64,000 nt of DNA from positions 1 through 64,000 of the forward strand of contig JAIDTL010000109.1 in the NCBI GenBank assembly GCA_029060725.1, read 5' to 3'. Positions 25,869 through 44,749 of the stretch are shown here, one piece after another (position 1 is the first letter of the stretch; every line of letters begins with the position of its first letter). Both the position numbers and the translations under genes were made by a program. This DNA comes from Muribaculaceae bacterium (GTDB lineage: Bacteria > Bacteroidota > Bacteroidia > Bacteroidales > Muribaculaceae). The notes below the pieces were generated by a model, which was given only the letters and a program-made list of their open reading frames with translations, was not told the origin of the DNA and did no database searches.

Positions 25869-26630
25869 ATGGCAAAAAGAATTGTGACAAAGATTGGTGA
25901 TGTCTTCTGTGTGGAAGTGGACAATGCCTACAAGAGGTATTTCCAGTACTTCTGCAATGATATGACGCAACTTAATAGCAGTGTAATACGTGTCTTCAAG
26001 AAAAGATATCAGATGGATTATAAGCCGAAACCGGAAGACATCGTTAAGGATGAAGTGGATTTCTATGCGCATACCATACTGCGTAATGGAATTGAAGATG
26101 GATTGTGGTATAAAGTGGGAAAGGCAAAAGGTGAGTTTGAAGAAGAAAAGAACAAACCCTTATTCGGCATGTGTGATGATATTGAATATGTAAACGGAGA
26201 TATTATTAAAGTTGATCCTGATAATAAATGGTATATATGGAAAATCAATTGTCCTTTTAAATCGATAGGTAAATTACCCGAGAAATACAGAGACTTAGTA
26301 GATTGGGGGCCTGTAAAAGCTGACGTAGATATTGTCAATCGGATCAAGTATGGATATTATATGTGGAACTCTCCCGCGCATAATCTTCTGCGGAGGCGAC
26401 CTTACCCATACGTTGACAGCTATATTCGGAAGGAACTGGATAATAAGACCATCTATCTGCACTTTAAAGGTGAATACGTAATCCAGAAATTAGTAATTGA
26501 TAATAACGGTCTTTCTACTGCCGAAGAAGGCGATCCGCTTCATCTGCCGTTATTCTGGGAGACGAATTGGGATGTAGATGAATTTATCACGGCGGAGGAA
26601 TTCAATGAGGCATGGGACAAATATGCATGA
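25869..26630 (+). CDS. Putative Imm26-like immunity protein
   Basis: The 253-residue cytoplasmic protein opens with KIGDVFCVEVDNAYKRYFQY and NDMTQLNSSVIRVFKKRY, which resemble Imm26-type immunity proteins of Bacteroides as I remember them. The remainder (VDFYAHTILRNGIEDGLWYKVG, NKWYIWKINCPFKSIG) fits that comparison; the C-terminal ~90 residues are not covered by it. It lies 47 bp after the 271-residue gene on the same strand. I infer it neutralises a toxin, either the current RHS tip or one carried earlier. Family assignment is from memory and should be treated as tentative. Confidence 0.6.
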   Translation: MAKRIVTKIGDVFCVEVDNAYKRYFQYFCNDMTQLNSSVIRVFKKRYQMDYKPKPEDIVKDEVDFYAHTILRNGIEDGLWYKVGKAKGEFEEEKNKPLFGMCDDIEYVNGDIIKVDPDNKWYIWKINCPFKSIGKLPEKYRDLVDWGPVKADVDIVNRIKYGYYMWNSPAHNLLRRRPYPYVDSYIRKELDNKTIYLHFKGEYVIQKLVIDNNGLSTAEEGDPLHLPLFWETNWDVDEFITAEEFNEAWDKYA

Positions 26631-26640
26631 TGGTCTGTAT

Positions 26641-26832
26641 GGAAATTCGAGCTGCAGAGGACGACGCGCCGCACGATGAATGGAGGATCGGAAAGCGTTC
26701 ATGAGGCAGGTCGAGATGAATCTCAGTCTCAAGAAAATATCAAAATTGAAGCAAATCCATATTCACGATGATATGGAGCGTGGCAAAACTCTTCTCCAAA
26801 AATTAGGAAATTTTCTCCGTCCAAACAAATAG
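26641..26832 (+). pseudogene. Remnant of a second copy of the 271-residue immunity-region gene
   Basis: Bases 26643-26680 correspond to 25324-25360 of the intact gene (KFELQRTTRR against KFEIQRSTRR). Bases from about 26682 to 26832 correspond to about 25671-25821 (EDRKAFMRQVEMNLSLKK against ENRDAFMRQVELNLSLKK, through the shared ending ...NK and stop). The alignment offset changes from 1319 to 1011, so about 308 bp are missing between the two parts. Because 308 is not a multiple of three, the two parts are in different frames. The copy has diverged at many positions, so it is an old duplicate or a recombined foreign allele. Confidence 0.8.
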
Positions 26833-27014
26833 TCGGAGCAAGCTCTATGCCTTACCACCCTTGTGTCATTCGTTGTGATGGAGTAATTCAAAAAAATGCA
26901 AAAAAATTATTGGAATTTTAAGAATTTTTAAGTACCTTTGCACTTGCTTAGTGGACACCTATTGCCCAAAAGCACCTTAACATCTGAATAAATTATTAAA
27001 ACATAAACTATTAT
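26833..27014 (+). promoter_or_regulatory. Leader and promoter of the nuo-atp-nuo operon
   Basis: TTG (26910-26912), 20 bases and TACCTTTG (26933-26940) form a consensus promoter, giving a leader of about 70 bases before nuoA. The leader has no Shine-Dalgarno sequence. The bases between the pseudogene end (26832) and the promoter show nothing else I can name. Confidence 0.8.
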
Positions 27015-27386
27015 ATGAATTTACTGTTGGAAATCAGCAACGGAGATTTGGCGATTACCGCCGCCCTCACCGGTATGGCTCTGGTGTTTGCGGCTTATTG
27101 GATCGCTCGACTGATAGGACCAAAATCCTATTCAGTAAAAAAAGGAGAGACTTACGAATGCGGTATCCCTACAAGAGGCGAATCAATGATTCAATTCAAG
27201 ACCGGATACTACATCTTCGCTATCCTGTTTCTCATTTTCGATGTCGAGACCATCTTCCTCTACCCTTGGGCGACTATCATGCGTAGCCTCGGTCCTTCCG
27301 GTCTCCTCTGCATCGCTATCTTCATGTTCATTCTTATTTTAGGCCTTGCTTACGCTTGGCGGAAAGGAGCTCTCAAATGGCAGTAA
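27015..27386 (+). CDS. nuoA: NADH-quinone oxidoreductase subunit A
   Basis: This 123-residue membrane subunit of complex I has three hydrophobic helices (about 12-34, 64-84, 90-112). It carries the conserved loop [20 protein letters not shown] and the segment [16 protein letters not shown]. It helps form the junction between the hydrophilic arm and the membrane arm near the quinone site. It is the first gene of the operon, 75 bases after the predicted -7 box, and overlaps nuoB by 10 bases. Confidence 0.97.
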
Positions 27387-28000
27387 CTATTGATGATGTC
27401 AAAATCAAGTCGATGAAGACAGAAGACTTCAAAGACAATGAATACATCGAAAAACTCGTAGAAGAACTCAACGCTACCGGTGCCAACGTAGCTGTCGGCA
27501 AGCTCGACCAGCTTATCAACTGGGGTATATCTAACTCTCTGTGGCCTCTTTGCTTCGGCACAAGCTGCTGCGCTATCGAGTTTATGTGTCTCGGAGCTGC
27601 CCGCTATGATATGGCTCGTTTCGGTTTTGAGGTGGCTCGTAACTCTCCACGTCAGGCGGACTATATTATGGTGCAGGGTACTATCGTCCACAAGATGGCT
27701 CCAGCGCTTGTCCGTCTATACGACCAGCTTGCCGAGCCCAAGTATGTCATCGCCTGTGGCGGTTGCGCTGTCAGCGGCGGTCCATTCAAGAAATCTTATT
27801 GCGTTGTTGATGGCGTCGACAAGATTCTTCCAGTCGACGTTTACATCCCCGGTTGCCCTCCTCGTCCGGAAGCAATGTTCTACGGCTTGATGCAGCTCCA
27901 ACGCAAGATCAAAATCCAGAAGTTCTTCGGCGGCGTCAACCGTAAAGAGAAGATCAAAGACTTCTTCCGCAAGCATCCTGAAGATGCAGGCGAGTATTAA
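27377..28000 (+). CDS. nuoB: NADH-quinone oxidoreductase subunit B
   Basis: The 207-residue subunit binds cluster N2, the last 4Fe-4S centre before quinone. The ligands are visible as C64 and C65 (SCCAIEF), C130 (GGCAVSGG) and C160 (PGCPPRPE). I start it at 27377 (MAVTIDDVK) because a GGAG lies 7 bases upstream, a rare Shine-Dalgarno-like sequence in this genome. The further-upstream in-frame ATG at 27356 would extend it into nuoA. The C-terminal ~30 residues are basic. Confidence 0.96.
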
Positions 28001-28033
28001 TCAAATATTTGTCAACAATACACAACCTATAAA

Positions 28034-29659
28034 ATGAGCGTTAAAGACAAAATAAGCAAGATTTGCCCGTCTGCCACATTTGAAGAAGGAGATGTCCTTC
28101 TCGTCAATGTGCCTGCAAAGGATTGGCGTGCGCTTGCAGAAGCACTCAAGCATGATCCGGAACTCAATTTTGATGTCCTTACCGCAGTGGTCGGAATGGA
28201 CTGGAAAGAGACTCTCGGTGTCATGTATTATTTCACTGCTACAAGCCGCAATTGGGAGATGCTGTCAGTGAAAGTAGCTGTTGCTGATCGTGAAAATCCT
28301 TATATCCACACAATTTCCGATCTTTGGAAAGTTGCAAACTTCCAGGAACGTGAGGTATATGATTTCTACGGCATCAAGTTTATCAACCATCCAGACATGC
28401 GCCGCTTCTTCTTGCGCAACGACTGGAAGGGATACCCTCTTCGCAAAGACTATGACAAAGATCCAAAACTCAATCCTATACCGGAAAACGACGAGAAAAA
28501 CGAGGATAACACCGTTTCATACGTAGAAGATCCTAACGGAGTGATCAAACCGATTCCTTCTAAGGTGTTCGAAATGCACGATTATGTGATGAACATTGGT
28601 CCTCAGCACCCATCTACTCACGGCGTAATGCGTTTCCGCGTAGCCCTCAACGGTGAGGAAGTGAAGAAAATCGACGTCGTGTCCGGTTATATCCACCGTG
28701 GAATAGAAAAATTGTGTGAAGAACTCGGTTATCCTCAGATCCTTCACTTCACAGACCGTATGGACTATATGAGTGCACACCAGAATCGTCATTGTCTCTG
28801 CATGTGCATCGAAAAGGCTCTTGGCCTTCAGGTTCCCGATCGTGCAGTCGTAATCCGCACAATGATGGATGAGCTGATGCGTATTTCAAGCCACCTGCTT
28901 GCTTTCGGATGTACAGCTATGGATATGGGTGCGACTACCGCATTCTTCTATGGTTTCCGCGAACGTGAAATGGTGCTTGATATTTTCGAGAAGACTTGCG
29001 GTGCGCGTATGTCGATGAACTATAACGTGATCGGCGGTGTGATGGCTGACCTTCACCCTGATTTTGTAAAAGACGTCAAGGCTCTACTCGCTATCATGCC
29101 GGAACGCCTGAAGGAGTATCATACAGTATTCTCTGGCAACCTCATTGCCAAGAATCGTCTCCATGTAGGTCATCTCTCTAAAGAAGATGCTATCAATTAT
29201 TGCATCACCGGTCCTTCAGGACGTGGCTCAAACTGGAGCTGCGACTGCCGCAAGAAACATCCATACGCTGCTTACGACAGAGTAGAATTTGATGAGGTTC
29301 TCCTTGACGGTTGCGACTCATACGCCCGCTACATGGTACGTATGAAAGAAATCGAACAGAGTTGCCGCATACTTGAGCAACTTGTAGACCGCATACCCGA
29401 AGGCGATATACGTGCCCAAGTGCCAAAGATTGTCAAGCTCCCCGTAGGACATTGGTATACTCAGGTGGAGGCTTCACGCGGCACTTTCGGTGTCTATATT
29501 GAAAGCGACGGTTCGAAGAACCCATATCGCGTACACTTCCAGAGTCCTTGCTTCAACCTCGTAGGGGTTATGGATCTCTGCTGCAAAGGCCACATGATCG
29601 CCGACGTCATAACAATCGGCGCAGCACTCGACTTCGTGATTCCAGATATTGACCGCTAA
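28034..29659 (+). CDS. nuoCD: NADH-quinone oxidoreductase fused subunits C and D
   Basis: The 541-residue protein joins NuoC (about residues 1-145, with REVYDFYGIKFINHPDMRR and GYPLRKDY) to NuoD (from about residue 180, with GPQHPSTHGVMRFRV, SGYIHRGIEKL and the terminal DFVIPDIDR). An acidic linker (ENDEKNEDNTVSYVEDPNG) separates them. The fusion is known in Bacteroidetes and enterobacteria. NuoD forms the quinone pocket with NuoB. It follows nuoB by 33 bases. Confidence 0.97.
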   Translation: MSVKDKISKICPSATFEEGDVLLVNVPAKDWRALAEALKHDPELNFDVLTAVVGMDWKETLGVMYYFTATSRNWEMLSVKVAVADRENPYIHTISDLWKVANFQEREVYDFYGIKFINHPDMRRFFLRNDWKGYPLRKDYDKDPKLNPIPENDEKNEDNTVSYVEDPNGVIKPIPSKVFEMHDYVMNIGPQHPSTHGVMRFRVALNGEEVKKIDVVSGYIHRGIEKLCEELGYPQILHFTDRMDYMSAHQNRHCLCMCIEKALGLQVPDRAVVIRTMMDELMRISSHLLAFGCTAMDMGATTAFFYGFREREMVLDIFEKTCGARMSMNYNVIGGVMADLHPDFVKDVKALLAIMPERLKEYHTVFSGNLIAKNRLHVGHLSKEDAINYCITGPSGRGSNWSCDCRKKHPYAAYDRVEFDEVLLDGCDSYARYMVRMKEIEQSCRILEQLVDRIPEGDIRAQVPKIVKLPVGHWYTQVEASRGTFGVYIESDGSKNPYRVHFQSPCFNLVGVMDLCCKGHMIADVITIGAALDFVIPDIDR

Positions 29660-29679
29660 CCAAAACGATAGAAAACGAC

Positions 29680-32344
<2,665 letters not shown>

Positions 32345-32363
32345 TCAATAGCACAATTCGATA

Positions 32364-32600
32364 ATGACTTTAGAAATCATATCCCCACAGGATGTCGTTT
32401 TCAAAGGCGACGCAGAGTCCGTAACTCTTCCGGGTGAACTTGGAAAGTTTACGGTATTGAAAAACCATGCGCCTCTGATTTCTGTGCTTGTTGAGGGTTC
32501 TATTGCCTACAGGACTCCGGGCGGTGAAGAACATTCTTACCCCATCAAAGGGGGGCTGGCAGACGTAGACAACAATGTAATATCGGTGTGCATCTATTAA
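32364..32600 (+). CDS. atpC: ATP synthase F1 subunit epsilon
   Basis: The 78-residue product consists of the N-terminal beta-sandwich of the epsilon subunit (MTLEIISPQDVVFKGDAESVTLPGELGKF, then VLKNHAPLISVL). It lacks the C-terminal helical hairpin that in E. coli inhibits ATP hydrolysis; usual length elsewhere is 130-140 residues. Short epsilon subunits are usual in Bacteroidetes. It links gamma to the c-ring in the rotor. It lies 20 bases after atpD and 11 before atpB. Confidence 0.93.
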   Translation: MTLEIISPQDVVFKGDAESVTLPGELGKFTVLKNHAPLISVLVEGSIAYRTPGGEEHSYPIKGGLADVDNNVISVCIY

Positions 32601-32610
32601 CAGAACTGTA

Positions 32611-33885
32611 ATGAGAAAGAATTTAGCCATACTGTTTTTGCTCATATCTATTATTGCCCTCCCCTTCTCCGCTAAAGCGAATGAAGAGGAGAAAGGTAAG
32701 GTAGACGTGAAAGAAAACATATTCCATCACCTTCTTGACGGATACGGTTGGGAAGTACCTTTCAGCCACTCCTACCGAATTCCGCTACCCGTCATAGTGA
32801 GAGCGGAAGACGGAAGCTGGCATTGCTTCTCTTCAGGTCGCCTCATTATGCACGAGGATGTTGTGGATCCAGCTACCGGTAAGACTCATGTAGTAAGTGA
32901 ACCTCAAATTGTCTATATCGAAAAAGATGGCAATCCCGAGGCTTATCAGTTTTTACTTGCCCATGTCAGCAAACACAAGGACAAGGTGATCCAAATCCTT
33001 CCTACTTCCGCCAAAGAGGAAGAAGAGGCTGCCGGAATCGCTGCTGCCCAGAATGATGAAGTCGTAGATGGCTTTGTCAAATATGATGGTAAATACTACA
33101 AAGAGTATCGCCCATTCGACATTTCCATCACAAAGAATGTCCTCGCTCTTTTCATAGCTGCTATCATCGTGACCTGGATGGTGATGGGTCTCGTGAGATT
33201 TTATACTCGCAACGGATACAAGGCTCCACGCAAGGGCATGGGATTTCTCGAACTTTGCATCGACTTTATATATAGCGGTGTGATCAAGAGCACTCTTGGG
33301 GATAAGGCTCCAAAATTTGCACCTTATCTTCTGACTGTATTCTTCTTCATCCTTGTGATGAACCTACTTGGGCTGATAGTTATCTTCCCTGGAGGAGCCA
33401 ATCTTACAGGCAACATCGCCATCACTCTTGTGCTTGCCGTGATGACCTTCGTGATCACAAACATAAATGGCAACAAGCATTATTGGAAAGAAATATTCTG
33501 GCCTGATGTGCCTTTGTTCCTGAAATTTCCGATTCCTATCATGCAGATCATTGAGGTTTTCGGTATCTTCACAAAGCCGGCTGCACTCTGTGTGCGTCTC
33601 TTTGCCAACATGATGGGCGGACACATGATTGTAATCACCCTTACTCTCCTTATCTTCATCTTTGCGGCTTACGGCGCAGCTGTAGCAGGAGCTACGACTG
33701 TAGTATCTCTCTTCTTCTCCATCTTCATGCTACTGCTTGACACTTTGGTCAGCTTCATTCAGGCTTACGTCTTCACCCTACTCTCGACTATCTTTATCTC
33801 GATGGCAGTCCATGAAGAACATGACTCCCACCATGAAGCCCATGATGCAGAAGCAACTACAGCCCCAAAAGCCCAATTAAACTAA
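32611..33885 (+). CDS. atpB: ATP synthase Fo subunit a, with long periplasmic N-terminal extension
   Basis: The 424-residue protein is much longer than the ~270-residue E. coli subunit. Residues 1-23 form a signal-like hydrophobic segment and residues ~24-170 a soluble extension (ENIFHHLLDGYGWEVPFSHSY, with a repeated-Glu stretch). The usual five or six membrane helices follow. The essential arginine lies in CVRLFANMMGGHM near residue 328. It forms the proton half-channels against the c-ring. The C-terminus is His/Asp/Glu-rich (HEEHDSHHEAHDAE). The stop codon overlaps the first units of a 9-bp tandem repeat. Confidence 0.95.
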   Translation: MRKNLAILFLLISIIALPFSAKANEEEKGKVDVKENIFHHLLDGYGWEVPFSHSYRIPLPVIVRAEDGSWHCFSSGRLIMHEDVVDPATGKTHVVSEPQIVYIEKDGNPEAYQFLLAHVSKHKDKVIQILPTSAKEEEEAAGIAAAQNDEVVDGFVKYDGKYYKEYRPFDISITKNVLALFIAAIIVTWMVMGLVRFYTRNGYKAPRKGMGFLELCIDFIYSGVIKSTLGDKAPKFAPYLLTVFFFILVMNLLGLIVIFPGGANLTGNIAITLVLAVMTFVITNINGNKHYWKEIFWPDVPLFLKFPIPIMQIIEVFGIFTKPAALCVRLFANMMGGHMIVITLTLLIFIFAAYGAAVAGATTVVSLFFSIFMLLLDTLVSFIQAYVFTLLSTIFISMAVHEEHDSHHEAHDAEATTAPKAQLN

Positions 33886-33982
33886 TTAGAATAATTAGAC
33901 CAATTTAACTAATTTAGCTAATTTGACCAATTTGACCAATTAGACCAATTTGGCTAATTTGGCTAATTTGACTAATTTGACC
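33875..33982 (+). repeat. Twelve-unit 9-bp tandem repeat between atpB and atpE
   Basis: Twelve consecutive 9-base units fit the pattern AATT(T/A)(G/A)(A/G)C(C/T), for example AATTTGACC, AATTTGGCT and AATTAGACC, from the last codons of atpB to 33982, with no spacers. A poly-A stretch and the atpE start follow. The region is non-coding apart from the first unit. Slippage could change copy number and so the atpB-atpE spacing or mRNA structure. Confidence 0.85.
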
Positions 33983-34030
33983 AATAAAAAAAAGAATTAA
34001 ACAATAATAACTCTAAAAAACCAAAAGACT

Positions 34031-34273
34031 ATGTTTTCAATGATTTTAGTAGCCGAAGCACTCGCATCTTTCGGCGCTGCTTTCGGAGCAGGCCTCTCAG
34101 CAATCGGCGCAGGTATCGGTATCGGTAAGATCGGTAGCAGCGCAATGGAAGCAATCGCTCGTCAGCCGGAAAGCGCAGGCGACATCCGTTCTAACATGAT
34201 CGTGATCGCTGCCCTCATCGAAGGTGTTGCTCTTTTCGCCGTGATCGTTTCTGCACTCGCACTCTTCATCTAA
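34031..34273 (+). CDS. atpE: ATP synthase Fo subunit c
   Basis: The 80-residue hairpin protein has two glycine/alanine-rich membrane helices joined by the polar loop ARQPESAGDIRS. The ion-binding carboxylate is E64 in ALIEGVALF. The Gly after it, and the absence of the Gln and Ser/Thr ligands seen in sodium-binding c subunits, point to proton coupling. High expression relative to other subunits is usually needed; the repeat-rich 145-base gap upstream may contribute to that. Confidence 0.96.
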   Translation: MFSMILVAEALASFGAAFGAGLSAIGAGIGIGKIGSSAMEAIARQPESAGDIRSNMIVIAALIEGVALFAVIVSALALFI

Positions 34274-34303
34274 TAGGCTTCAGCCATATAATTTCTTAAA
34301 ATA

Positions 34304-34798
34304 ATGGAATTATTCACGCCCGATTTTGGACTGGTGTTCTGGATGTTCGTCGCGTTCATCCTCCTCTTCATCGTGCTTGCGAAGTGGGGATGGCCCGTCA
34401 TCATCAAGCAGATGGAAGGGCGTGCTGACACTATCGACAAAGGTGTGGAATACGCACGCGAAGCCAAGCAGCAGCTTGACAACGCGAAGGAATCTGCACA
34501 GCAGGTCATAGGTGAAGCTCAGGCCAAACAAGCTGAAATGCTTCGTGAGGCTGCTAAAATGAAAAGCCAAATCATAGAGGAAGCAAAGAAAGAAGCTTCC
34601 GAAGAGGCTCGTAAGGTGATGGAGCAGGCTAAAGTCTCTATCGAGCAGTCACGTAAAGAAGCAGAACTCCAGTTCAGAAATGAAGTAAGCAAGTTCTCTA
34701 TCAACATCGCCGAGAAGATGGTGCGCAACCAACTCAAAAACGATGAAGAACAGCAGAAACTTGTGAATAAGATGTTGGACGAAATAGAGAAGAACTGA
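34304..34798 (+). CDS. atpF: ATP synthase Fo subunit b
   Basis: The 164-residue stator subunit has one N-terminal membrane helix (about residues 8-28, GLVFWMFVAFILLFIVLAKW) followed by a long charged coiled coil (YAREAKQQLDNAKESAQQVIGEAQAKQ). It forms the peripheral stalk holding F1 against rotation. It follows atpE by 30 bases and is 4 bases from atpH. Confidence 0.96.
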   Translation: MELFTPDFGLVFWMFVAFILLFIVLAKWGWPVIIKQMEGRADTIDKGVEYAREAKQQLDNAKESAQQVIGEAQAKQAEMLREAAKMKSQIIEEAKKEASEEARKVMEQAKVSIEQSRKEAELQFRNEVSKFSINIAEKMVRNQLKNDEEQQKLVNKMLDEIEKN

Positions 34799-34802
34799 GG
34801 CA

Positions 34803-35348
34803 ATGAACGAGGGACTTATACCCCAGCGCTACGCTAAAGCGCTCTATAAACTCTCCGTCGAAAGAGGGAATTCCGATAAGGTATACCTCGAGATGAAGAC
34901 GGTGGCTAATTCGTTTGCACAGAATCCCGGTCTTCAGAAGGTGCTTTCAAATCCCTACGTGAAACGTGAGGATAAAGCAAAACTCCTTCTTAGTGCAGCC
35001 GGAGACTTGGTGGAAGACGACTATCGTTCATTTGTCGAGCTCATTCTTGACAGGAAAAGGGCTTCATACGCCCATCTTATGGCTCTTGCATATTGTGATA
35101 TCTACAGGAAAGAGCATAAAATAGCCCGAGTCAAAATAATCACAGCCTCTCAACTCAGCGATGAGATGATGCAAAAGCTGCGTGATGTCGTGACAAAGGC
35201 TTATCCAGGAATGACTCTTGAATTCTCTTACGATGTGGATCCCGATCTCATTGGAGGTTTCGTAATAGACGTTGATGGTAAACGCCTCGACGCTTCGATC
35301 AGCAATGAGATTGAACAATTACGTTTAAAACTTTTAAGAAGCAATTAA
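34803..35348 (+). CDS. atpH: ATP synthase F1 subunit delta
   Basis: The 181-residue stator protein starts with the typical helical N-domain ([20 protein letters not shown]) and ends with the beta/alpha C-domain ([35 protein letters not shown]). It joins the b-subunit stalk to the top of the alpha3beta3 head. The gaps to its neighbours are 4 and 2 bases, implying coupled translation. Confidence 0.95.
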
Positions 35349-35350
35349 CA

Positions 35351-36925
35351 ATGCTTAACCCAAGCGAAATTTCAGATATTCTAAAGCAACAACTCGAGAA
35401 CGTTAACTCTCAGGTCAAGTTTGAAGAGACCGGAACCGTGCTAAGCGTCGGCGACGGCGTAGCTCACGTCTACGGTCTTGAGAATGTGGAAGCCAGCGAG
35501 CTTGTTGTCTTTGAAAACGGCTCTACCGGTGTCGCACTCAACCTTGAGGAGAGCAACGTCGGTGTTGTGCTTCTTGACGATGTCAATGCAGTGACAGAAA
35601 ACATGACGGTTCGTCGCACGGGTGAGATTGCCTCTATTCCGGTCGGCGAAGGTCTCTTCGGTCGCGTAATCAACATTCTCGGCGAACCGATTGACGGCAA
35701 CGGCCCAATAGAAGGCGAGTTGCTTCGCATGCCTCTCGAGAGAAAAGCTCCCGGTGTTATCTTCCGTCAGCCTGTTAAGCAGCCTCTACAGACTGGTCTG
35801 AAGGCTGTCGACTCTATGATTCCTATTGGCCGCGGTCAGCGCGAGCTTATCATTGGCGACCGTCAGATCGGTAAGACTGCCATTGCTATCGATACAATAA
35901 TCAACCAGCGTCAAAACTACCTCGACGGCAAACCCGTATATTGTATCTACGTTGCAATCGGACAGAAAGCATCTACTGTGGCTTCTATAGTGCAGACTCT
36001 CAAAAAGCATGGAGCTATGGACTACACTGTTGTGGTTTCAGCTACTGCTTCCGATTCTGCTGCCATGCGCTACTTTGCTCCTTTTGCAGGCGTGGCAATC
36101 GGCGAATATATACGCGACACTGGCCGCGATGCTCTCATCGTATATGATGACTTGTCAAAGCAGGCAGTTGCATATCGTGAGATATCACTTATCCTTAAGC
36201 GTCCTTCCGGCCGAGAGGCTTATCCGGGTGATATTTTCTATCTCCACTCTCGCCTTCTCGAACGCGCAGCCAAGATCATCGACAACCAGCAAGTGGCTTC
36301 AAATATGAACGACCTTCCGGAAGTGCTAAAGCCAATTGTGAAAGGTGGCGGCTCACTGACGGCTCTTCCTATCATCGAAACTCAGGCTGGCGACGTGTCT
36401 GCATATATCCCTACCAATGTGATCTCTATCACAGACGGACAGATCTTCCTTGAGACTGCACTTTTCAACCAGGGTATTCGCCCTGCAGTCAATGTAGGTA
36501 TCTCTGTATCCCGTGTAGGTGGTAACGCTCAGATCAAACCAATGAAGAAGGTGGCAGGTACTCTAAAGATTGCACAAGCACAATATCGTGAGCTCGAATC
36601 ATTCACCAAGTTTGGTGGCGACATCGACCCGGTAACTGCAAAGGTGATCGATACCGGACGTAAAAACCAACAGCTTCTCATCCAGCCACAGTATCAGCCT
36701 TGGCCCGTAGAAAACCAAGTCGCTGTAATTTATTGCGGTGTCAATGGTCTGTTGGAGAATGTTCCTCTTGATAAGGTGCATGAGTTTGAATCTCTTTTCA
36801 TCCAACTCCTTGAAGCTAAATATCGTAAGGAAGTGCTTGATGAAATAAAAGCCGGCAATCTTTCTGACGATGTACAAGCTAAACTTCGCGAATGTGCTAC
36901 AGAAATTAGCGCTCGCTACAAATAA
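35351..36925 (+). CDS. atpA: ATP synthase F1 subunit alpha
   Basis: The 524-residue non-catalytic nucleotide-binding subunit contains the P-loop [15 protein letters not shown] near residue 169, [19 protein letters not shown], and the signature [13 protein letters not shown]. The length matches the family. It is 2 bases after atpH and 104 bases before atpG; that gap contains two hairpins. Confidence 0.98.
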
Positions 36926-36935
36926 TTGACTCATA

Positions 36936-37016
36936 GGTATGCGCCGCTTGAACCCGACGCATACCCCCATTAGTATTAAAAACCATAAACATTAAGTTGA
37001 GCAAAGCGAGACTTAA
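36936..37016 (+). promoter_or_regulatory. Two consecutive hairpins between atpA and atpG
   Basis: GGTATGCG (36936-36943) pairs with CGCATACC (36958-36965), and TTAAGT (36992-36997) pairs with ACTTAA (37011-37016). Neither is followed by a T-run. They may lower or stabilise the distal part of the mRNA so that gamma is made at lower stoichiometry than alpha, which is inference. Confidence 0.5.
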
Positions 37017-37029
37017 ATATTAAAACGAC

Positions 37030-37920
37030 ATGGCAACCCTAAGGGAACTAAAGACACGAATAGGCTCTGTAGCATCAAGCGAAAAGATCACTGGCGCTAT
37101 GAAGATGATTTCTTCTGCCAAGGTGCATAAGTTTGAGGCGTCTCTCAAGCAGTTGGTGCCTTATCGCAGTAAGATTAAGGCTATCATGGCCCATATCATA
37201 CAGTCAGGCTCCGATTTCAGCAGCCCGCTGATCGAAAGCCGCCACGAGGTCAATAAGATTGCTTTCGTAGTCTTCGGAAGCGACGATGGCCTTTGCGGTG
37301 CATATAATATCAATATCTTCAAGGCAGCTCTCGGAGAGCTCAAAGGACTACAGGCTAAATATGGACCTTCAGTAGAAATCGACATCTACCCTATCGGTCA
37401 GAAAATGGCAAAAGCTGTCAATAAGATAGCCGGACCGCATATTCATGTGGTCAGATTGGATGGAGTCGACTCTAAGATGGAGGCTGACAAGGTAAATGAA
37501 TTCACTCATAGCCTCAGAGACAAATTTTCTTCCGGAGAATATGACCTTGTCTGTGTAGAATACATGAAGTTCTATTCAATGAGCCGCCAACGTCCACTTC
37601 TGGAGACTATCTTCCCGATATCCGGACAAACTCTCCTTGAAGGTGCGGACGATGAAGTATCTACCGGCTTATGCATCTTCGAACCTGATGCCAATAGCAT
37701 CTTCAATGCCGTGCTACCGATGTTTGTGCTTTCTACAATGCAGGAAATCACAATCGAAAACAAGGCATCAGAGCAAGCAGCGCGTGTGATGGCAATGCAA
37801 AGTGCCAACGACAATGCCAAGAAACTCCTCGAAGGCCTACAACTTGAGTATAATAAACTGCGTCAGGAAGGAATTACAACCGAACTTCTCGATATACTCG
37901 GAGGCCAAGTAGAACGCTAA
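37030..37920 (+). CDS. atpG: ATP synthase F1 subunit gamma
   Basis: The 296-residue rotor shaft subunit has the N-terminal coiled-coil helix (ELKTRIGSVASSEKITGAMKMISSAKVHKF), the Rossmann-like middle (FVVFGSDDGLCGAYNINIF) and the C-terminal helix (NDNAKKLLEGLQLEYNKLRQEGITTELLDILGG). It rotates inside the alpha3beta3 ring. It is the last ATP synthase gene; nuoI follows after 42 bases with no terminator. Confidence 0.97.
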   Translation: MATLRELKTRIGSVASSEKITGAMKMISSAKVHKFEASLKQLVPYRSKIKAIMAHIIQSGSDFSSPLIESRHEVNKIAFVVFGSDDGLCGAYNINIFKAALGELKGLQAKYGPSVEIDIYPIGQKMAKAVNKIAGPHIHVVRLDGVDSKMEADKVNEFTHSLRDKFSSGEYDLVCVEYMKFYSMSRQRPLLETIFPISGQTLLEGADDEVSTGLCIFEPDANSIFNAVLPMFVLSTMQEITIENKASEQAARVMAMQSANDNAKKLLEGLQLEYNKLRQEGITTELLDILGGQVER

Positions 37921-37962
37921 ATCAAAAATTTGACAACTTGACAACATAAAATAACACATTAT

Positions 37963-38595
37963 ATGAGTAGTATTAAGGAATATTTTTCGTCGGTAGGACA
38001 AGGCATCGTGAGTCTGGCGAAGGGTATGGCCGTGACAGGAAAGGAGCTTGTGACTCCTAAGATCACGGAACAATATCCCGAAAACCGTAAGACACTCAAG
38101 ATTGCTGACCGTTTCCGTGCGGAACTTACACTGATTGGCGATGACGCTACCCCGGCTTACAATAAGTGTATTGCCTGCGGCATCTGCCAGATGAACTGCC
38201 CCAACAGCTCAATCGAACTCAAGACAAGATTCGTAGAGCTTCCAGACGGCAAAAAGAAAAAAGTGCTCGACAAGTATTACTACGACCTCGGAAGCTGCAC
38301 ATTCTGCATGCTTTGCGTGACTACTTGCCCGCAGGATGCTCTTGAATTCTCTAACGAATTCGAACAGGCAGTTTTCACTCGAGACAAACTCGTCAAGGTG
38401 CTCAACGCGCATTCTGAAATGACAGATGCACAAGTGATCGCTGAAGCATCCAAGCCTAAACCAAAACCGGCTATGGATCCGGAGCAACTCGCCAAGATCA
38501 AAGCTGAAGCCCTCGCAAAAGCAGCTGCTAAAAAGGCTGCCCAGGAAGCGGCTAAGAACGCAGAGAATCAATCTTCCGAGACTCCACAATCTTGA
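37963..38595 (+). CDS. nuoI: NADH-quinone oxidoreductase subunit I
   Basis: The 210-residue ferredoxin-like subunit carries two 4Fe-4S clusters, CIACGICQMNCP (about residues 66-77) and CTFCMLCVTTCP (about 111-122), corresponding to N6a and N6b. The C-terminal ~60 residues form a Lys/Ala/Pro-rich tail (KPKPKPAMDPEQLAKIKAEA...) not found in E. coli NuoI. Because nuoEFG are missing from this operon, NuoI may be the docking point for an external electron donor such as ferredoxin. It resumes the nuo genes after the atp block. Confidence 0.96.
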   Translation: MSSIKEYFSSVGQGIVSLAKGMAVTGKELVTPKITEQYPENRKTLKIADRFRAELTLIGDDATPAYNKCIACGICQMNCPNSSIELKTRFVELPDGKKKKVLDKYYYDLGSCTFCMLCVTTCPQDALEFSNEFEQAVFTRDKLVKVLNAHSEMTDAQVIAEASKPKPKPAMDPEQLAKIKAEALAKAAAKKAAQEAAKNAENQSSETPQS

Positions 38596-38643
38596 CAATT
38601 TGACATCCATACAACTTGACAACTCGAAAACTAAAATAACAAC

Positions 38644-39174
38644 ATGGATTCAGTAGGAAACATAGTACTCTACTTCGTAGTCGCCATTGTAATGGTGATT
38701 TCAGCCTTTATGGCTGTCACTACGACCAAAATCCTCCGTGCTGCTACTTATCTTCTTTTCTCGCTCATTGGCACTGCCGTATTCTATTTCCAGATGGGAT
38801 ATCAGTTCCTTGGTGCTGTGCAGATAGCAGTCTATGCCGGAGGTATTATGGTGCTGTTTGTGTTTGCAATTATTCTTACCCATAAGCCCAACGATAAGAC
38901 CGCTCCTTTAGCGGCTCATCGTCAGATTGTCGGCATCTCGGCTTCTGTGATTGGCGCTGTCCTTTTGATATTGGCTCTTTTCAAGATGCCTCTCGTAAAA
39001 GGAGTGTCACTATCTCAGGCTATTGCTTATGGCGGACCTCAAATCACAATGCACGACATTGGCACCGCACTTGTAGGATCAGAAAAATTCCAGTATCTTC
39101 TTCCTTTCGAGGCCATCAGCTTGCTGCTGCTTGCCTGCATCATCGGAGGAGTGGTAATCGCTCGTAAAAAATAA
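38644..39174 (+). CDS. nuoJ: NADH-quinone oxidoreductase subunit J
   Basis: The 176-residue membrane protein has five helices, with the conserved YFQMGYQFLGAVQIAVYAGGIMVLFVF segment around residues 48-74, which forms the pi-bulge helix region of NuoJ/ND6. The gap before it repeats the words TTGACAA/CTTGACAACT, which also occur before nuoI. Confidence 0.96.
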   Translation: MDSVGNIVLYFVVAIVMVISAFMAVTTTKILRAATYLLFSLIGTAVFYFQMGYQFLGAVQIAVYAGGIMVLFVFAIILTHKPNDKTAPLAAHRQIVGISASVIGAVLLILALFKMPLVKGVSLSQAIAYGGPQITMHDIGTALVGSEKFQYLLPFEAISLLLLACIIGGVVIARKK

Positions 39175-39194
39175 TCCCAAAATAGTTTTATATT

Positions 39195-39506
39195 ATGGAT
39201 ATAAGCATTTTATGGTATTTAGTGCCGAGCATTCTACTCTTTGTTTGTGGTGTCTACGGCTTCATTACTCGAAAAAATATGATCGCTATGCTGATATCTC
39301 TTGAGCTTATGCTCAATTCAGCCGATCTCAATTTTGTGATTTTCAACCGTTATCTTTTCCCCGGCTCAATGGAAGGCATGATCTTCTCTCTCTTTGCCAT
39401 AGCAATTGCAGCAGCTGAGACAGCTATCGCTATCGCGCTGATCATCAACATCTATCGCGCTATCGGGAATACAAATGTGACGGATATTAAAGAAATGAAA
39501 TTCTAA
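39195..39506 (+). CDS. nuoK: NADH-quinone oxidoreductase subunit K
   Basis: The 103-residue three-helix subunit contains MLISLELMLNSADLNFV with the key glutamate of the proton path, and AIAAAETAIAIALIINIYR with the second conserved glutamate. Length and motifs match NuoK/ND4L. It is 20 bases after nuoJ and 14 before nuoL. Confidence 0.97.
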   Translation: MDISILWYLVPSILLFVCGVYGFITRKNMIAMLISLELMLNSADLNFVIFNRYLFPGSMEGMIFSLFAIAIAAAETAIAIALIINIYRAIGNTNVTDIKEMKF

Positions 39507-39520
39507 ACTATTCCTAAGAT

Positions 39521-41473
39521 ATGGACATAACACTTCCAATTTTAATCCTTGCGATCCCAATTGCGATGTTCCTCATCTTGGGAATCGGAGGCGTTGTGAT
39601 GCCACGCAAAGTAGCCGGTGTGCTCGGCATTCTTGGCATGGGCACTTGTGCAGTGCTTGCCTACACAGTGGCTTTCACATACTTCTTCAGTGGTGCGCCC
39701 GACTTCATCACTGATCTTGGTCAGCGTCTGCAATATCAGGTATTCGATGTCACCTGGCTTGCTTTTACTGAGAAACTCGTTGTGAAAATCGGTTTCCTTC
39801 TTGATCCGATTTCTGCAATGATGCTGATTGTGATCACTACAATCTCATTCTTCGTACACCTCTATTCATGGGGATACATGGAGCATGAACCGGGCTTCCA
39901 ACGCTACTACGCTTTCCTCAGCCTATTCTCGTTCTCTATGCTCGGCCTCGTAGTGGCTACCAACATTTTCCAGATGTATATTTTCTGGGAGCTCGTAGGT
40001 GTCAGCTCTTATCTGCTTATCGGATTCTTCTATAAGCTTCCGTCGGCAGTGTCTGCATCTAAGAAGGCATTTATCGTAACTCGTTTCGCCGACCTCGGAT
40101 TTCTTATCGGTATCTTACTTCTCTCCTACTATACTGATACGTTCAACTTCCAGGCTCTCACTTCCAATCCGGAACTCGTGATGGCAGAATGTGGCGGCGC
40201 TACATTCATGGGAGCTTCCGTGATGACTTGGGCAATGGTGCTCATCTTCATGGGTGGTATGGGTAAGTCTGCAATGATGCCTCTCCATATATGGCTTCCA
40301 GACGCAATGGAAGGTCCGACTCCGGTATCTGCCCTTATCCACGCTGCCACAATGGTCGTTGCCGGTGTGTATCTCGTTGCCCGTATGTTCCCCTGCTACT
40401 GTCAGGTTCCGGCTTCTATGGATTTTGTAGGTGTCGTAGGTGCTATCACTGCTTTCTACGCTGCCGTAGTAGCTTGTACTCAGATCGACATCAAACGTGT
40501 GCTTGCTTTCTCTACAATCTCTCAGATTGCATTCATGATGGTATCACTCGCTGTGGCTCGCGACTATGTTCCGGTTGGTGAACATTGGCATGCTCCGGGT
40601 CTCGGCTACATGGCTTCCATGTTCCACCTCTTCACTCACGCAATGTTCAAGGCCCTCCTCTTCCTTGGAGCAGGATGCCTTATACATGCTGTCCACTCAA
40701 ACGACTACACAAAAATGGGTGGCCTACGCAAATATATGCCTATAACTCACTGGACATTCCTCATCGGCTGTCTCGCCATTGCCGGTATACCTCCATTCTC
40801 TGGCTTCTTCTCAAAGGATGAAATGCTGGCAGCAATGTATCAGAACTCTTTCTTCTGGGGTGCATGGATGTCGATGGTAGCAGGTCTGACTGCTTTCTAT
40901 ATGTTCCGTCTCTATTATCTCATCTTCTGGTGGGAAGAGAATCCTCACTACAAAGAGCACAAGCCCCACGATGCTCCTTGGCAGATGTCGCTCCCGCTTA
41001 TCATCCTTGCTCTCGTGAGCTGCGTCGCCGGCTTCATTCCATTCGGTGAGTTCGTCACTTACAACGGAGAACCTTACCACATCCATCTTGAAGCAGCAGT
41101 TGCATTGACAAGCGTTGCGATTGCCGTCATCGCAATCGCATTGGCAACTTGGCTTTATGCTAAGAAAAACGATCGTCCTGCCAAGATGCGCGCAGCGCTC
41201 CCAACTCTTTGGGAAGCAGCCCACCGTCGCTTCTACTGGGATGAGATCTATCAATTCATCACTCACAAGATTATCTTCGGTATCATTTGCAACAGCATAG
41301 CATGGTTTGACCGTCACGTCATTGACGCCACGATGGATGGCTTTGCAAAGATCACTCAGAAAGGAAGCTATGCTATCCGCGGCATGCAGAACGGACATAT
41401 TCAGGCTTACGTGGCTTGGTATTTCTTCGGAGCCCTCGCTCTTGCTGCCGTAGTTTGGCTGTGCCTCGTTTGA
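39521..41473 (+). CDS. nuoL: NADH-quinone oxidoreductase subunit L
   Basis: The 650-residue antiporter-like subunit has about 16 membrane helices and the lateral helix near its C-terminus. Key features are FWELVGVSSYLLIGF with the conserved glutamate, GKSAMMPLHIWLPDAMEGPTPVSALIHAATMV with the pump lysine and histidines, and FSTISQIAFMM. It is the distal proton pump of complex I. The length is slightly above the E. coli protein (613). Confidence 0.97.
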   Translation: MDITLPILILAIPIAMFLILGIGGVVMPRKVAGVLGILGMGTCAVLAYTVAFTYFFSGAPDFITDLGQRLQYQVFDVTWLAFTEKLVVKIGFLLDPISAMMLIVITTISFFVHLYSWGYMEHEPGFQRYYAFLSLFSFSMLGLVVATNIFQMYIFWELVGVSSYLLIGFFYKLPSAVSASKKAFIVTRFADLGFLIGILLLSYYTDTFNFQALTSNPELVMAECGGATFMGASVMTWAMVLIFMGGMGKSAMMPLHIWLPDAMEGPTPVSALIHAATMVVAGVYLVARMFPCYCQVPASMDFVGVVGAITAFYAAVVACTQIDIKRVLAFSTISQIAFMMVSLAVARDYVPVGEHWHAPGLGYMASMFHLFTHAMFKALLFLGAGCLIHAVHSNDYTKMGGLRKYMPITHWTFLIGCLAIAGIPPFSGFFSKDEMLAAMYQNSFFWGAWMSMVAGLTAFYMFRLYYLIFWWEENPHYKEHKPHDAPWQMSLPLIILALVSCVAGFIPFGEFVTYNGEPYHIHLEAAVALTSVAIAVIAIALATWLYAKKNDRPAKMRAALPTLWEAAHRRFYWDEIYQFITHKIIFGIICNSIAWFDRHVIDATMDGFAKITQKGSYAIRGMQNGHIQAYVAWYFFGALALAAVVWLCLV

Positions 41474-41505
41474 TAAGTTATTCATATTGCTAAAAATATA
41501 AGACA

Positions 41506-43023
41506 ATGTTTGGAAATATTTTAATTTGGTTTGTAGTCATCCCCATCCTGATGATGGCGGGACTCGGCTTCTGCCGCAACAGCAGTATGAATGCCATCCG
41601 CGCGGTGATGACTATAGGTAGCACTGCTCTGATGGTGCTTGGCATCTGGCTTACCGTAGACTTCCTCAGCCTCCGCGCTGCCGGAAACACTGAAGAAATG
41701 CTTTACATGGGAAGCTGGCTCTGGTATGCTCCTCTTAATATTCATCTTGCAGTTGGCGTCGACGGAATCTCCGTCCTCATGCTTCTCCTAAGCTGCGTGA
41801 TTGTATTCGCCGGAACATTCGCTTCTTGGAAAATCAACCCACTTCCAAAGAATTTCTTCCTTTGGTTCTGCCTCCTCAGCACAGGAGTATTCGGATTCTT
41901 CATCTCAATCGACATGTTTACAATGTTCATGTTCTATGAGGTGGCACTTATCCCGATGTACCTTCTTATCGGTGTCTGGGGTACAGGTCGCAAGGAATAT
42001 AGCGCAATGAAGCTTACTCTTATGCTTATGGGCGGCTCAGCATTCCTTATGCTTGGTCTTCTCGGTATCTTCTGGCACTCAGCTCCGGATCTTGCAAATT
42101 GCACTTGGAATATCCTTGAAATTTCTCACAATTCAAGCATCGACCCAAGCTGGCAGCGTCTTCTCTTCTGCTTCACATTCGTTGGCTTTGGCGTTCTTGG
42201 CGCTATGTTCCCATTCCACACATGGAGTCCTGATGGTCACGCTTGTGCACCGACTGCAGTGTCAATGCTCCACGCAGGTGTGCTTATGAAGCTTGGTGGT
42301 TACGGCTGCTTCCGCATCGCTATCTTCCTTCTTCCACAGGCTGCCAACGAACTCGCTTGGATCTTTATCGTGCTCACCGGTATTTCAATTGTATATGGTG
42401 CATTTTCAGCTTGTGTACAGACCGACCTCAAATATATCAATGCCTACTCTTCAGTGTCACACTGCGGCATGGTGCTCTTCGCAATCTTGATGCTTAACAC
42501 CACTGCAATGACCGGTGCAATCATGCAGATGCTTTCTCACGGCTTAATGACAGCACTCTTCTTTGCTCTTATCGGTATGATTTACGGAAGGACTCACACA
42601 CGCGACATCCGTCAGATGGGTGGCTTGATGAAGATAATGCCTTACCTCGGTGTCTGCTACATGATCGCCGGTTTTGCATCTCTCGGTCTCCCGGGTCTTT
42701 CAGGCTTCGTTGCTGAGATGACAATCTTCTTCGGTTCATTCCAGGATGCTGACACTTTCCACAGAGTATTTGTGATTGCAGCTACTTGCTCAATTGTGAT
42801 CACTGCAGTCTACATCCTTCGTGTTGTCGGAAAGCTCCTTCTTGGCCCGGTTCAGGATGAACATCACCTTGCGCTGACAGATGCATCTTGGTTTGAGCGT
42901 CTGAGCACAGTGACCCTCATCCTTTGCATTGCAGGCATAGGTTGCTTCCCCAACTGGATCAATGAGACTATTCAGCATTCATTCCATCCGATTATAGCAG
43001 CAATACAAGCTGCCGCTCTCTAA
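41506..43023 (+). CDS. nuoM: NADH-quinone oxidoreductase subunit M
   Basis: The 505-residue antiporter-like subunit shows FYEVALIPMYLLIGVWG with the conserved glutamate, FPFHTWSPDGHACAPTAVSMLHAGVLMKLGGYG, and YSSVSHCGMVLFA. It is the middle proton pump. Residues 1-40 and the C-terminal ~25 residues are variable. It follows nuoL after 32 bases. Confidence 0.97.
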   Translation: MFGNILIWFVVIPILMMAGLGFCRNSSMNAIRAVMTIGSTALMVLGIWLTVDFLSLRAAGNTEEMLYMGSWLWYAPLNIHLAVGVDGISVLMLLLSCVIVFAGTFASWKINPLPKNFFLWFCLLSTGVFGFFISIDMFTMFMFYEVALIPMYLLIGVWGTGRKEYSAMKLTLMLMGGSAFLMLGLLGIFWHSAPDLANCTWNILEISHNSSIDPSWQRLLFCFTFVGFGVLGAMFPFHTWSPDGHACAPTAVSMLHAGVLMKLGGYGCFRIAIFLLPQAANELAWIFIVLTGISIVYGAFSACVQTDLKYINAYSSVSHCGMVLFAILMLNTTAMTGAIMQMLSHGLMTALFFALIGMIYGRTHTRDIRQMGGLMKIMPYLGVCYMIAGFASLGLPGLSGFVAEMTIFFGSFQDADTFHRVFVIAATCSIVITAVYILRVVGKLLLGPVQDEHHLALTDASWFERLSTVTLILCIAGIGCFPNWINETIQHSFHPIIAAIQAAAL

Positions 43024-43056
43024 TCTAAATCTTTACCTTTCAAACAAACAAAAACA

Positions 43057-44535
43057 ATGGACTATTCACAATTTGGGACAATGCTTCCCGAACTGATTGT
43101 ATTGGGAATCTTCCTCATTGTGTTCTTTATGGACACATTCGGAGGAGAGGGGGTAAAGAAGATTCTGACCCCATTCACTGCAGTACTCTTCCTTCTCGGT
43201 ACAGTAGCCATCTGGCTTGCTCCGAGCAGCCCGGAAGGAATCTTCGGAGGCATGTATGTCAATGACACTGCATGCAAAGCCATGAAGTGCATTCTAAACA
43301 TAGGCGTATTTCTTGTGCTGCTTCAGTCTTTCAAATGGGCTGACAGCGAGGAAATGACCTTAAGAAAGGGTGAGTTCTATGAGCTACTTCTCGTCACTCT
43401 CTTCGGCATGTATCTTATGGTTTCGGCTCGCCACTTCCTTCTTTTCATTATCGGACTCGAATCAGCATCTCTCCCGCTTGCGGCGATGATCGCATTCGAC
43501 AAATACCGCTACGAAAGCCACGAAGCAGGCATTAAGTATATTCTTACTGCCGTCTTCAGTTCTGCAATTTTGATGATGGGTCTTAGCTTCGTCTACGCAT
43601 TCTCAATGGGAAGCCTCTACTTCTCTGATCTCTCGATGGCTATTGCCCAGGGAGAGATGAGCGGACTGCTGCTCTTCGCTCTCGCATTCGTGATGGCTGG
43701 TATCGGATTCAAGCTTTCGCTCGTTCCATTCCATCTCTGGACAGCCGACGTATATCAAGGAGCTCCGACTCCGGTGACTTCTTATCTTTCTGTCATCTCC
43801 AAGGGTTCTGCAGCATTCGCTTTCTTCATCATCTTCACACAGTGCTTCGGTCAGGTATACAGCGATGCATGGGAATGGATGCTCTACGCACTCATTATCC
43901 TCACTATCACTGTCGGCAACCTCTTCGCACTCCGCCAGAAGAACATGAAGCGATTCATGGCATTCTCTTCTGTATCACAGGCAGGATACATAATGCTTGG
44001 TGTAATAGCCGCAAACGCTCTCGGATTAGCATCTTTGATGTTCTACATCATCGTCTATGTAGTGAGCAACCTTGGTGCTTTCGCAGTAATCCAGACTATT
44101 GAAGACAATACAGGCAAACTCAATATGGACGACTACAACGGTCTCCATAAGACAAATCCTTGGCTCAGCGTGGCAATGACACTTGCGATGTTCTCTCTTG
44201 CAGGTATTCCTCCATTTGCAGGATTCTTTAGCAAAATACTCATCTTCACAAGCGTTTGCTCCACAAATTCAATGGCACTCTATATGCTCGTGCTCATCGC
44301 CCTCATCAACACTGTGATATCCCTCTACTACTATCTCTGCGTTGTGAAGGCAATGTGGATTTCAAATGAAGAGCCTGTCATTGGATCGTTCAACAGCACA
44401 TGCGTAGCCAAAGTCGGACTTGGACTCTGCCTTATCGGCATCCTCTTCTTCGGTCTCGTAAGCCCAATCTACCAATGGCTCGTCAACTCTGTAGAACTCT
44501 CGATGTGGGAGCCACTCGCCCTCCTCGGACTCTGA
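43057..44535 (+). CDS. nuoN: NADH-quinone oxidoreductase subunit N
   Basis: The 492-residue proximal antiporter-like subunit has IIGLESASLPLAAMIAFDK with the conserved glutamate, FKLSLVPFHLWTADVYQGAPTPVTSYLSVISKG with the pump lysine, and FSSVSQAGYIMLG. It is the last gene of the operon. A strong terminator follows 55 bases after the stop codon. Confidence 0.97.
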   Translation: MDYSQFGTMLPELIVLGIFLIVFFMDTFGGEGVKKILTPFTAVLFLLGTVAIWLAPSSPEGIFGGMYVNDTACKAMKCILNIGVFLVLLQSFKWADSEEMTLRKGEFYELLLVTLFGMYLMVSARHFLLFIIGLESASLPLAAMIAFDKYRYESHEAGIKYILTAVFSSAILMMGLSFVYAFSMGSLYFSDLSMAIAQGEMSGLLLFALAFVMAGIGFKLSLVPFHLWTADVYQGAPTPVTSYLSVISKGSAAFAFFIIFTQCFGQVYSDAWEWMLYALIILTITVGNLFALRQKNMKRFMAFSSVSQAGYIMLGVIAANALGLASLMFYIIVYVVSNLGAFAVIQTIEDNTGKLNMDDYNGLHKTNPWLSVAMTLAMFSLAGIPPFAGFFSKILIFTSVCSTNSMALYMLVLIALINTVISLYYYLCVVKAMWISNEEPVIGSFNSTCVAKVGLGLCLIGILFFGLVSPIYQWLVNSVELSMWEPLALLGL

Positions 44536-44590
44536 TAAATTGCATACAAAAATCTATCAGATAGAAATAACATTCAAATATAAATTCTGA

Positions 44591-44627
44591 AAGGCTGTCG
44601 CTCCCCGCGACAGCCTTTTTCCTTTTT
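44591..44627 (+). terminator. Rho-independent terminator of the nuo-atp-nuo operon
   Basis: AAGGCTGTCG (44591-44600) pairs with CGACAGCCTT (44608-44617) and is followed by TTT CC TTTTTT. It is the first convincing terminator after the promoter at 26910, 17.7 kb upstream. Confidence 0.9.
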
Positions 44628-44639
44628 TCTGAAAAAATG

Positions 44640-44671
44640 TTTGTTTTTAAATTCTTTTTTTTATAACTTTG
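44640..44671 (+). promoter_or_regulatory. Promoter of the C10 peptidase gene
   Basis: TTTG (44640-44643), 20 bases and TAACTTTG (44664-44671) match the consensus exactly. The leader to the ATG at 44750 would be about 70 bases. Confidence 0.8.
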
Positions 44672-44749
44672 TACATTATTTCACTAAAATAATTCAACTA
44701 TTGAATAATTAGCTTAGAATCGCTTATAAAAATATCAAACATAAATTTT

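Follow-up and report, generated by a model that had tools for sequence, protein, structure and literature searches.

Why should the eight genes of an F-type ATP synthase lie in the middle of the operon for respiratory complex I? The question is raised by a 64,000-nucleotide stretch from the draft genome of a Muribaculaceae gut bacterium (assembly GCA_029060725.1, contig JAIDTL010000109.1, positions 1 to 64,000; hereafter the window), in which 18 open reading frames (ORFs) at 27015-44535, all on the plus strand and all above the curated Pfam cut-offs, read nuoA-B-CD-H, atpD-C-B-E-F-H-A-G, nuoI-J-K-L-M-N. An initial annotation, made from the letters of the sequence, had given this order on one strand and had placed the split between nuoH and nuoI; the Pfam identification of all 18 genes, with the eight atp genes between those two, upholds both points. 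We consider it highly probable that the locus goes back to an ancestral insertion, has been inherited vertically since and is transcribed as one unit from the promoter before nuoA; it would be the normal energy locus of the Muribaculaceae and allied families. Under this explanation, an intact atpDCBEFHAG operon would have entered an 11-subunit complex I operon between nuoH and nuoI in the common ancestor of these families, and the embedded locus would afterwards have passed down by descent. Transcription of this 18-gene unit of ~17.6 kb would start at the nuoA promoter and stop at the terminator that follows nuoN, putting the sole detected F-type ATP synthase under the same transcriptional control as a headless complex I, and relative protein amounts would be set after transcription, through translation initiation and hairpins, for example that in the atpA-atpG gap.

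The initial annotation knew of no description of this arrangement, but it was published for the Muribaculaceae in 2016: Ormerod et al., writing on S24-7 ('Ca. Homeothermaceae', now Muribaculaceae), state in the portion of their paper available to us (PMC4936053) that the F-type ATP synthase genes are integrated in the complex I locus, that this complex I has 11 of 14 subunits and lacks NuoEFG, and that one genome (H5) is without both complex I and the ATP synthase locus; NADH oxidation elsewhere is proposed. The window resembles the locus of that account in its 11-subunit complex I, the atp genes inside it and its Muribaculaceae host, whereas the gene order, promoter, origin and six further family-level groups come, as far as that portion extends, from the present analysis. 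Beyond PMC4936053 we found no other description of the integration in a search covering subscription journals in part, and it is not stated in the available portions of PMC7002350, PMC6560451 and PMC5709465. What we add is the extent over seven family-level groups, support for a single origin, a pre-assembled atp unit and a lost promoter motif.

Conservation and origin of the embedded locus

Gene-order comparison across the Bacteroidales bears out that the arrangement is real, old and conserved. Our order sample comprised 295 genomes, from which 139 loci were fetched among the NuoH matches listed above 299 bits (all but G058:C783 and the window's own; some genomes contribute two loci). Among the matches listed, the gene after nuoH was atpD in 21 loci, nuoI in 115 and unrecognised in 3. 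The 21 represent seven families with three genomes each, that is, the window's family and six further family-level groups, Barnesiellaceae included, and atpD followed nuoH in none of the other 115 resolved loci. The named-genome set, consisting of the best 80 of 587 relatives and therefore favouring close kin, had atpD after nuoH in 75 loci, nuoI in 3 and a locus end after nuoH in 2; the 75 include Muribaculaceae and Barnesiella, and in one of them (L112) atpD stands behind an insertion. These 96 other embedded loci (21 and 75) carry 96 distinct nuoH sequences, and 80 of them also span the atpG-nuoI junction.

Within the family we sampled 118 genomes (at least 90% completeness, drawn from the larger family, plus the window's own genome), of which all had one AtpB match each and 117 had a NuoH match. 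In 110 genomes the two matches share a contig and a strand, nuoH preceding atpB by 2178-2849 bp; the atpG-nuoI junction was read in 22 of these (the window, L056, L063, L068, L313-L322 and L324-L331), and the remaining 88 are placed by the nuoH-atpB pairing alone. In the other 8 a contig ends within the locus, with nuoH-atpD, atpG-nuoI or both spanned, and the sole genome without a NuoH match (G326) has a contig that ends inside atpD and an atpG that adjoins nuoI. Taken together, the coordinate pairs and the junction-spanning broken loci make all 118 genomes fit the arrangement, a single-contig assembly (G364) among them. We therefore reject a recent or strain-specific insertion.

Two quick trees without bootstrap were built, one of NuoH (77 rows: 60 order-sample loci, 16 of the 80 named loci and the window) and one of NuoB, NuoCD, NuoH and NuoI (41 rows: 40 loci and the window). 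In both, the window falls among named Muribaculaceae, as do the rows of its family (f1), and by this placement the window genome is a member of the Muribaculaceae, formerly S24-7. Its closest NuoH among the best 80 of 587 (L092, 80% identity) is labelled Porphyromonadaceae and groups with Muribaculaceae rows; another family (f109) groups with Barnesiella sp. An22 in the NuoH tree. In the four-protein tree, all 24 embedded rows group in a single clade apart from the 17 others, with a value of 99 in the Shimodaira-Hasegawa-like approximate likelihood ratio test (SH-aLRT), and this clade adjoins Bacteroidaceae-type rows and families f24 and f106, which supports a single origin of the embedded arrangement.

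The atp genes appear to have arrived ready-made. We fetched 15 atp loci from genomes with an uninterrupted nuoH-nuoI junction; ten read D-C-B-E-F-H-A-G up to the limit of the stretch, one reads B-E-F-H-A-G-D-C, and in four no atp gene was found in the stretch beside atpD except atpC (three of the four). Because the ten include f106, f24 and Bacteroidaceae-type families, assembly of the operon most likely preceded its insertion, and the event itself was probably the insertion of a complete atpDCBEFHAG operon between nuoH and nuoI. The internal order is identical to that of the Bacteroidetes 'minor complete transcription unit' (beta-epsilon-a-c-b-delta-alpha-gamma), the ATP synthase unit in Bacteroides and Prevotella (PMC5709465), for which, unlike the unit described here, insertion into nuo is not mentioned in the portion of that paper available to us. 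In a nearby family, one contig (G106, C8; L279 and L294) carries convergent atp and nuo operons ~11 kb apart, perhaps a hint of the state before insertion.

Promoters and the probable transcription unit

All promoter searches used TTG-N18-22-TANNTTTG, which we take to be the Bacteroidetes consensus. A Bacteroidetes-type promoter of the form TTG-N20-TANNTTTG lies on the plus strand at 26910-26940, exactly where the initial annotation had put one; it reads TTG-N20-TAccTTTG and is the sole full plus-strand match between 26500 and the nuoN stop, with 0.48 expected in 26500-45500 under a first-order Markov model. The strong terminator claimed past nuoN is likewise present on the plus strand (44589-44629), as a 13-pair stem at 44589-44619 followed by a T-rich tail; it ranks first, by a wide margin, among 13 terminator-like sites, which is no more than shuffles give (mean 15.2). 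The additional claim that nothing else intervenes stands with regard to full promoters and has to be amended by two hairpins without T tracts (30782-30811 and 36936-36965). No known RNA family was found in 26500-45000 at Rfam gathering scores.

The comparison with relatives extends this picture. Within 200 nt upstream of the start codon, we counted the full motif (strict) and the -7 element alone (core). Before nuoA the strict motif occurs in 37/91 embedded loci (1.7 expected) and the core in 71/91 (13.0 expected). Before embedded atpD the counts are 1/96 strict (1.0 expected) and 5/96 core (9.4 expected, hence under chance), and before nuoI 1/80 strict (0.1 expected) and 3/80 core (3.3 expected); the remaining genes are near chance, with small excesses at nuoL (core 17/79, 5.2 expected; strict 0) and nuoN (strict 2/60, 0.6 expected). 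As a positive control, free-standing atpD genes of relatives (matched in 27 of 30 genomes at 28 loci, 25 after two partial loci and one with a short upstream region were left out) have the strict motif in 6/25 (0.47 expected) and the core in 21/25 (3.9 expected). Embedded atpD thus lacks a motif that is present before most of the free atpD genes sampled, and the atp genes inside nuo have apparently lost a promoter of their own. With no recognisable atp promoter left, transcription of all 18 genes most likely begins at the nuoA promoter and ends at the terminator behind nuoN. The comparative promoter evidence supports a single transcription unit, and from motif and spacing taken together co-transcription as a superoperon is likely. 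We give fairly good odds to a fuller version of this idea, a true respiratory superoperon in which an ancient relocation would have cost the atp genes their promoter, the only detected F-ATPase of seven families would rely on read-through transcription started at the promoter of a complex I lacking NuoEFG, and hairpins, above all the one between atpA and atpG, would restore unequal subunit dosage.

Alternatively, the embedding may be positional only, a frozen accident without shared control in which the atp genes are transcribed mainly from their own promoter of an unseen type and nuoI-N from another; we regard this as rather improbable. A sigma-70-like site (TTAACA-16-AAAAAT, 30819-30846) does lie at the atpD start in the window, and the nuo operon of Bacteroides fragilis is poorly expressed in rich medium, according to the available portion of PMC7002350; the need for ATP synthase might be broader. 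However, the site overlaps the atpD start codon itself, the 35 sigma-70-like sites in the region are within chance (28.7 expected, standard deviation 5.5), and the Bacteroidetes core motif, so frequent before free atpD, is below chance before the embedded gene. The junctions are also tight: the nuoH-atpD gap has a median of 45.5 nt over 96 embedded loci and is at most 150 nt in 95 of them, L112 being the single outlier, and the atpG-nuoI gap has a median of 56 nt over 73 loci, exceeding 200 nt in 4. Chance proximity or a mistaken assembly join of two operons, which a draft genome in 170 contigs might suggest, is hardly credible and an error at a junction is excluded, since nuoH precedes atpD in 96 further loci with as many differing nuoH sequences, 80 of them read over atpG-nuoI as well, and all 118 family genomes fit, the single-contig assembly included.

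Several observations weigh against the explanation by one ancestral insertion and one transcription unit. The NuoH-only tree requires two changes, with Bacteroidaceae-type rows, whose atp genes lie outside, falling inside the embedded group; this hints at two independent insertions, or one followed by loss, of which the four-protein tree with its single clade gives no sign. The motif scan sees one sigma-factor consensus and no other promoter type, and even before nuoA the full motif is found in fewer than half of the loci (the 37/91 given above). In L112, a metagenome-assembled genome, the nuoH-atpD gap is 2377 nt long and holds a 716-amino-acid (aa) ORF, which would break the superoperon there. 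In L063, nuoI is followed by a run of N, and nuoJ-N were not found after it in the fetched 17.4 kb, be it through a scaffold gap, a withheld stretch or loss. Finally, in L041 and L105 a T run stands behind a stem in the atpG-nuoI gap, so partial termination before nuoI is possible in these two. The ORF in L112 has, by eye, the look of a surface protein rich in repeats, its end resembling a dockerin.

Were co-transcription shown, the locus would represent a clean natural case of a promoter-less operon captured by another respiratory operon, a capture retained in seven family-level groups, common gut bacteria among them, and ATP synthase expression would be tied to this NuoEFG-less complex I. 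It also suggests that polar insertions in the first nuo genes would affect ATP synthase too, and caution would be necessary in transposon screens of Muribaculaceae.

Physiology and intergenic hairpins

The complex I cluster encodes 11 subunits (A, B, CD, H and I-N), with nuoE, nuoF and nuoG absent from it, and a search of the window's own genome, which is 86.6% complete, gave no NuoF-type protein (PF01512); NuoE and NuoG were sought in the cluster only. This complex I is therefore probably not an ordinary NADH-driven proton pump, and the one NqrB/RnfD-type protein in the genome is in line with NADH oxidation elsewhere. The nuo operon of B. fragilis is alike in having 11 subunits and no nuoEFG; there, NADH oxidation by the complex was undetected and oxidation elsewhere was measured (PMC7002350, in the portion available). 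It differs in that no atp genes are mentioned in that portion, and the Bacteroidaceae-type rows of our sample have nuoI directly after nuoH.

The embedded AtpB is the single AtpB match of its genome, and no V-type a subunit was found there. Sodium-coupled c subunits have Gln in helix 1 and Ser or Thr after the Glu; the embedded c subunit reads ...GIGIGKIG... and ...LIEGVALF..., lacking these residues at those places, so that the F-type ATP synthase is likely proton-coupled. The subunits of an F-ATPase are required in unequal numbers, and a shared message alone cannot set protein ratios. The fixed pump-to-synthase ratio that the initial annotation expected from a common message does not follow.

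Hairpins between genes are a candidate means of adjusting such ratios. The two in the window, both on the plus strand, have 8-bp stems and no T tract. One, with a 14-nt loop, occupies 30782-30811 between nuoH and atpD (minimum free energy (MFE) z -3.23 relative to base shuffles), the other 36936-36965 between atpA and atpG (z -3.71). Their loops, at 30790 and 36944, match at 11/14 bases, with differing stems, and the loop pattern (three free positions) occurs in the genome just at these two places; since a reversed control also turns up once, the count by itself could be due to chance, and the notable point is the common location. We reject a dispersed repeat as their source, as both copies in the genome are here. 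The pattern is absent from the relatives' operons read, except twice in L045 without matching arms.

Among relatives, hairpin counts omit gaps above 400 nt and below 20 nt (stem counts) or 30 nt (MFE z), and the genus relatives overlap the named loci (L092/L314 and L099/L320 have identical gaps). The atpA-atpG gap has z below -2 in 7/8 measured genus relatives, 2/7 other family members, 15/27 wider embedded loci and 2/3 free atp operons, and perfect stems of at least 7 pairs in 12/43 gaps (0.6 expected); a hairpin here is not specific to the embedded state. We infer that it may balance the output of alpha (three copies) against that of gamma (one copy). It recurs with unrelated sequence in L092, L094, L097, L103, L142, L313, L319 and others. 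Hairpins are most frequent in this gap but recur in others. In the wider embedded set, the atpE-atpF gap has z below -2 in 10/22 and stems in 5/37, and the atpG-nuoI gap has z below -2 in 19/63 and stems of at least 7 in 7/66. The nuoH-atpD gap is mostly unstructured in relatives (z below -2 in 5/85), and we reject a conserved attenuator there.

Gene coordinates and neighbouring features

All 18 genes lie on the plus strand. The unit opens with nuoA (27015-27386, PF00507) and nuoB (27356-28000, PF01058); the nuoB ORF is listed from a TTG at 27356, and an in-frame ATG at 27377 makes the overlap with nuoA probably ten bases. These are followed by nuoCD (28034-29659, PF00346 and PF00329), nuoH (29680-30756, PF00146, E 1.1e-116) and the 88-nt nuoH-atpD junction (30757-30844), in which the motif scan found no Bacteroidetes promoter. 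The ATP synthase genes, each assigned by Pfam, are atpD (30845-32344), atpC (32364-32600), atpB (32611-33885), atpE (34031-34273), atpF (34304-34798), atpH (34803-35348), atpA (35351-36925) and atpG (37030-37920, PF00231). Complex I resumes with nuoI (37963-38595), assigned by its 4Fe-4S domains and position, and continues with the Pfam-assigned nuoJ (38644-39174), nuoK (39195-39506), nuoL (39521-41473), nuoM (41506-43023) and nuoN (43057-44535), the last three being distinguished from one another by order and length.

An AT-rich tandem repeat (unit of ~9 bases, 11.7 copies, 33873-33985) covers the end of atpB and part of the atpB-atpE gap. Upstream of nuoA lie a gene for a 2070-aa RHS-repeat/FG-GAP protein with an SpvB-like match (18524-24736) and an ORF with a sub-threshold Imm26 match (25869-26630). 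Just past the terminator, a second Bacteroidetes-type promoter match (44641-44671) precedes a gene for a C10-family peptidase with an inhibitor-like domain (44750-46771), and on the minus strand at 47321-48055 a 244-aa ORF matches the BspA-type leucine-rich repeat.

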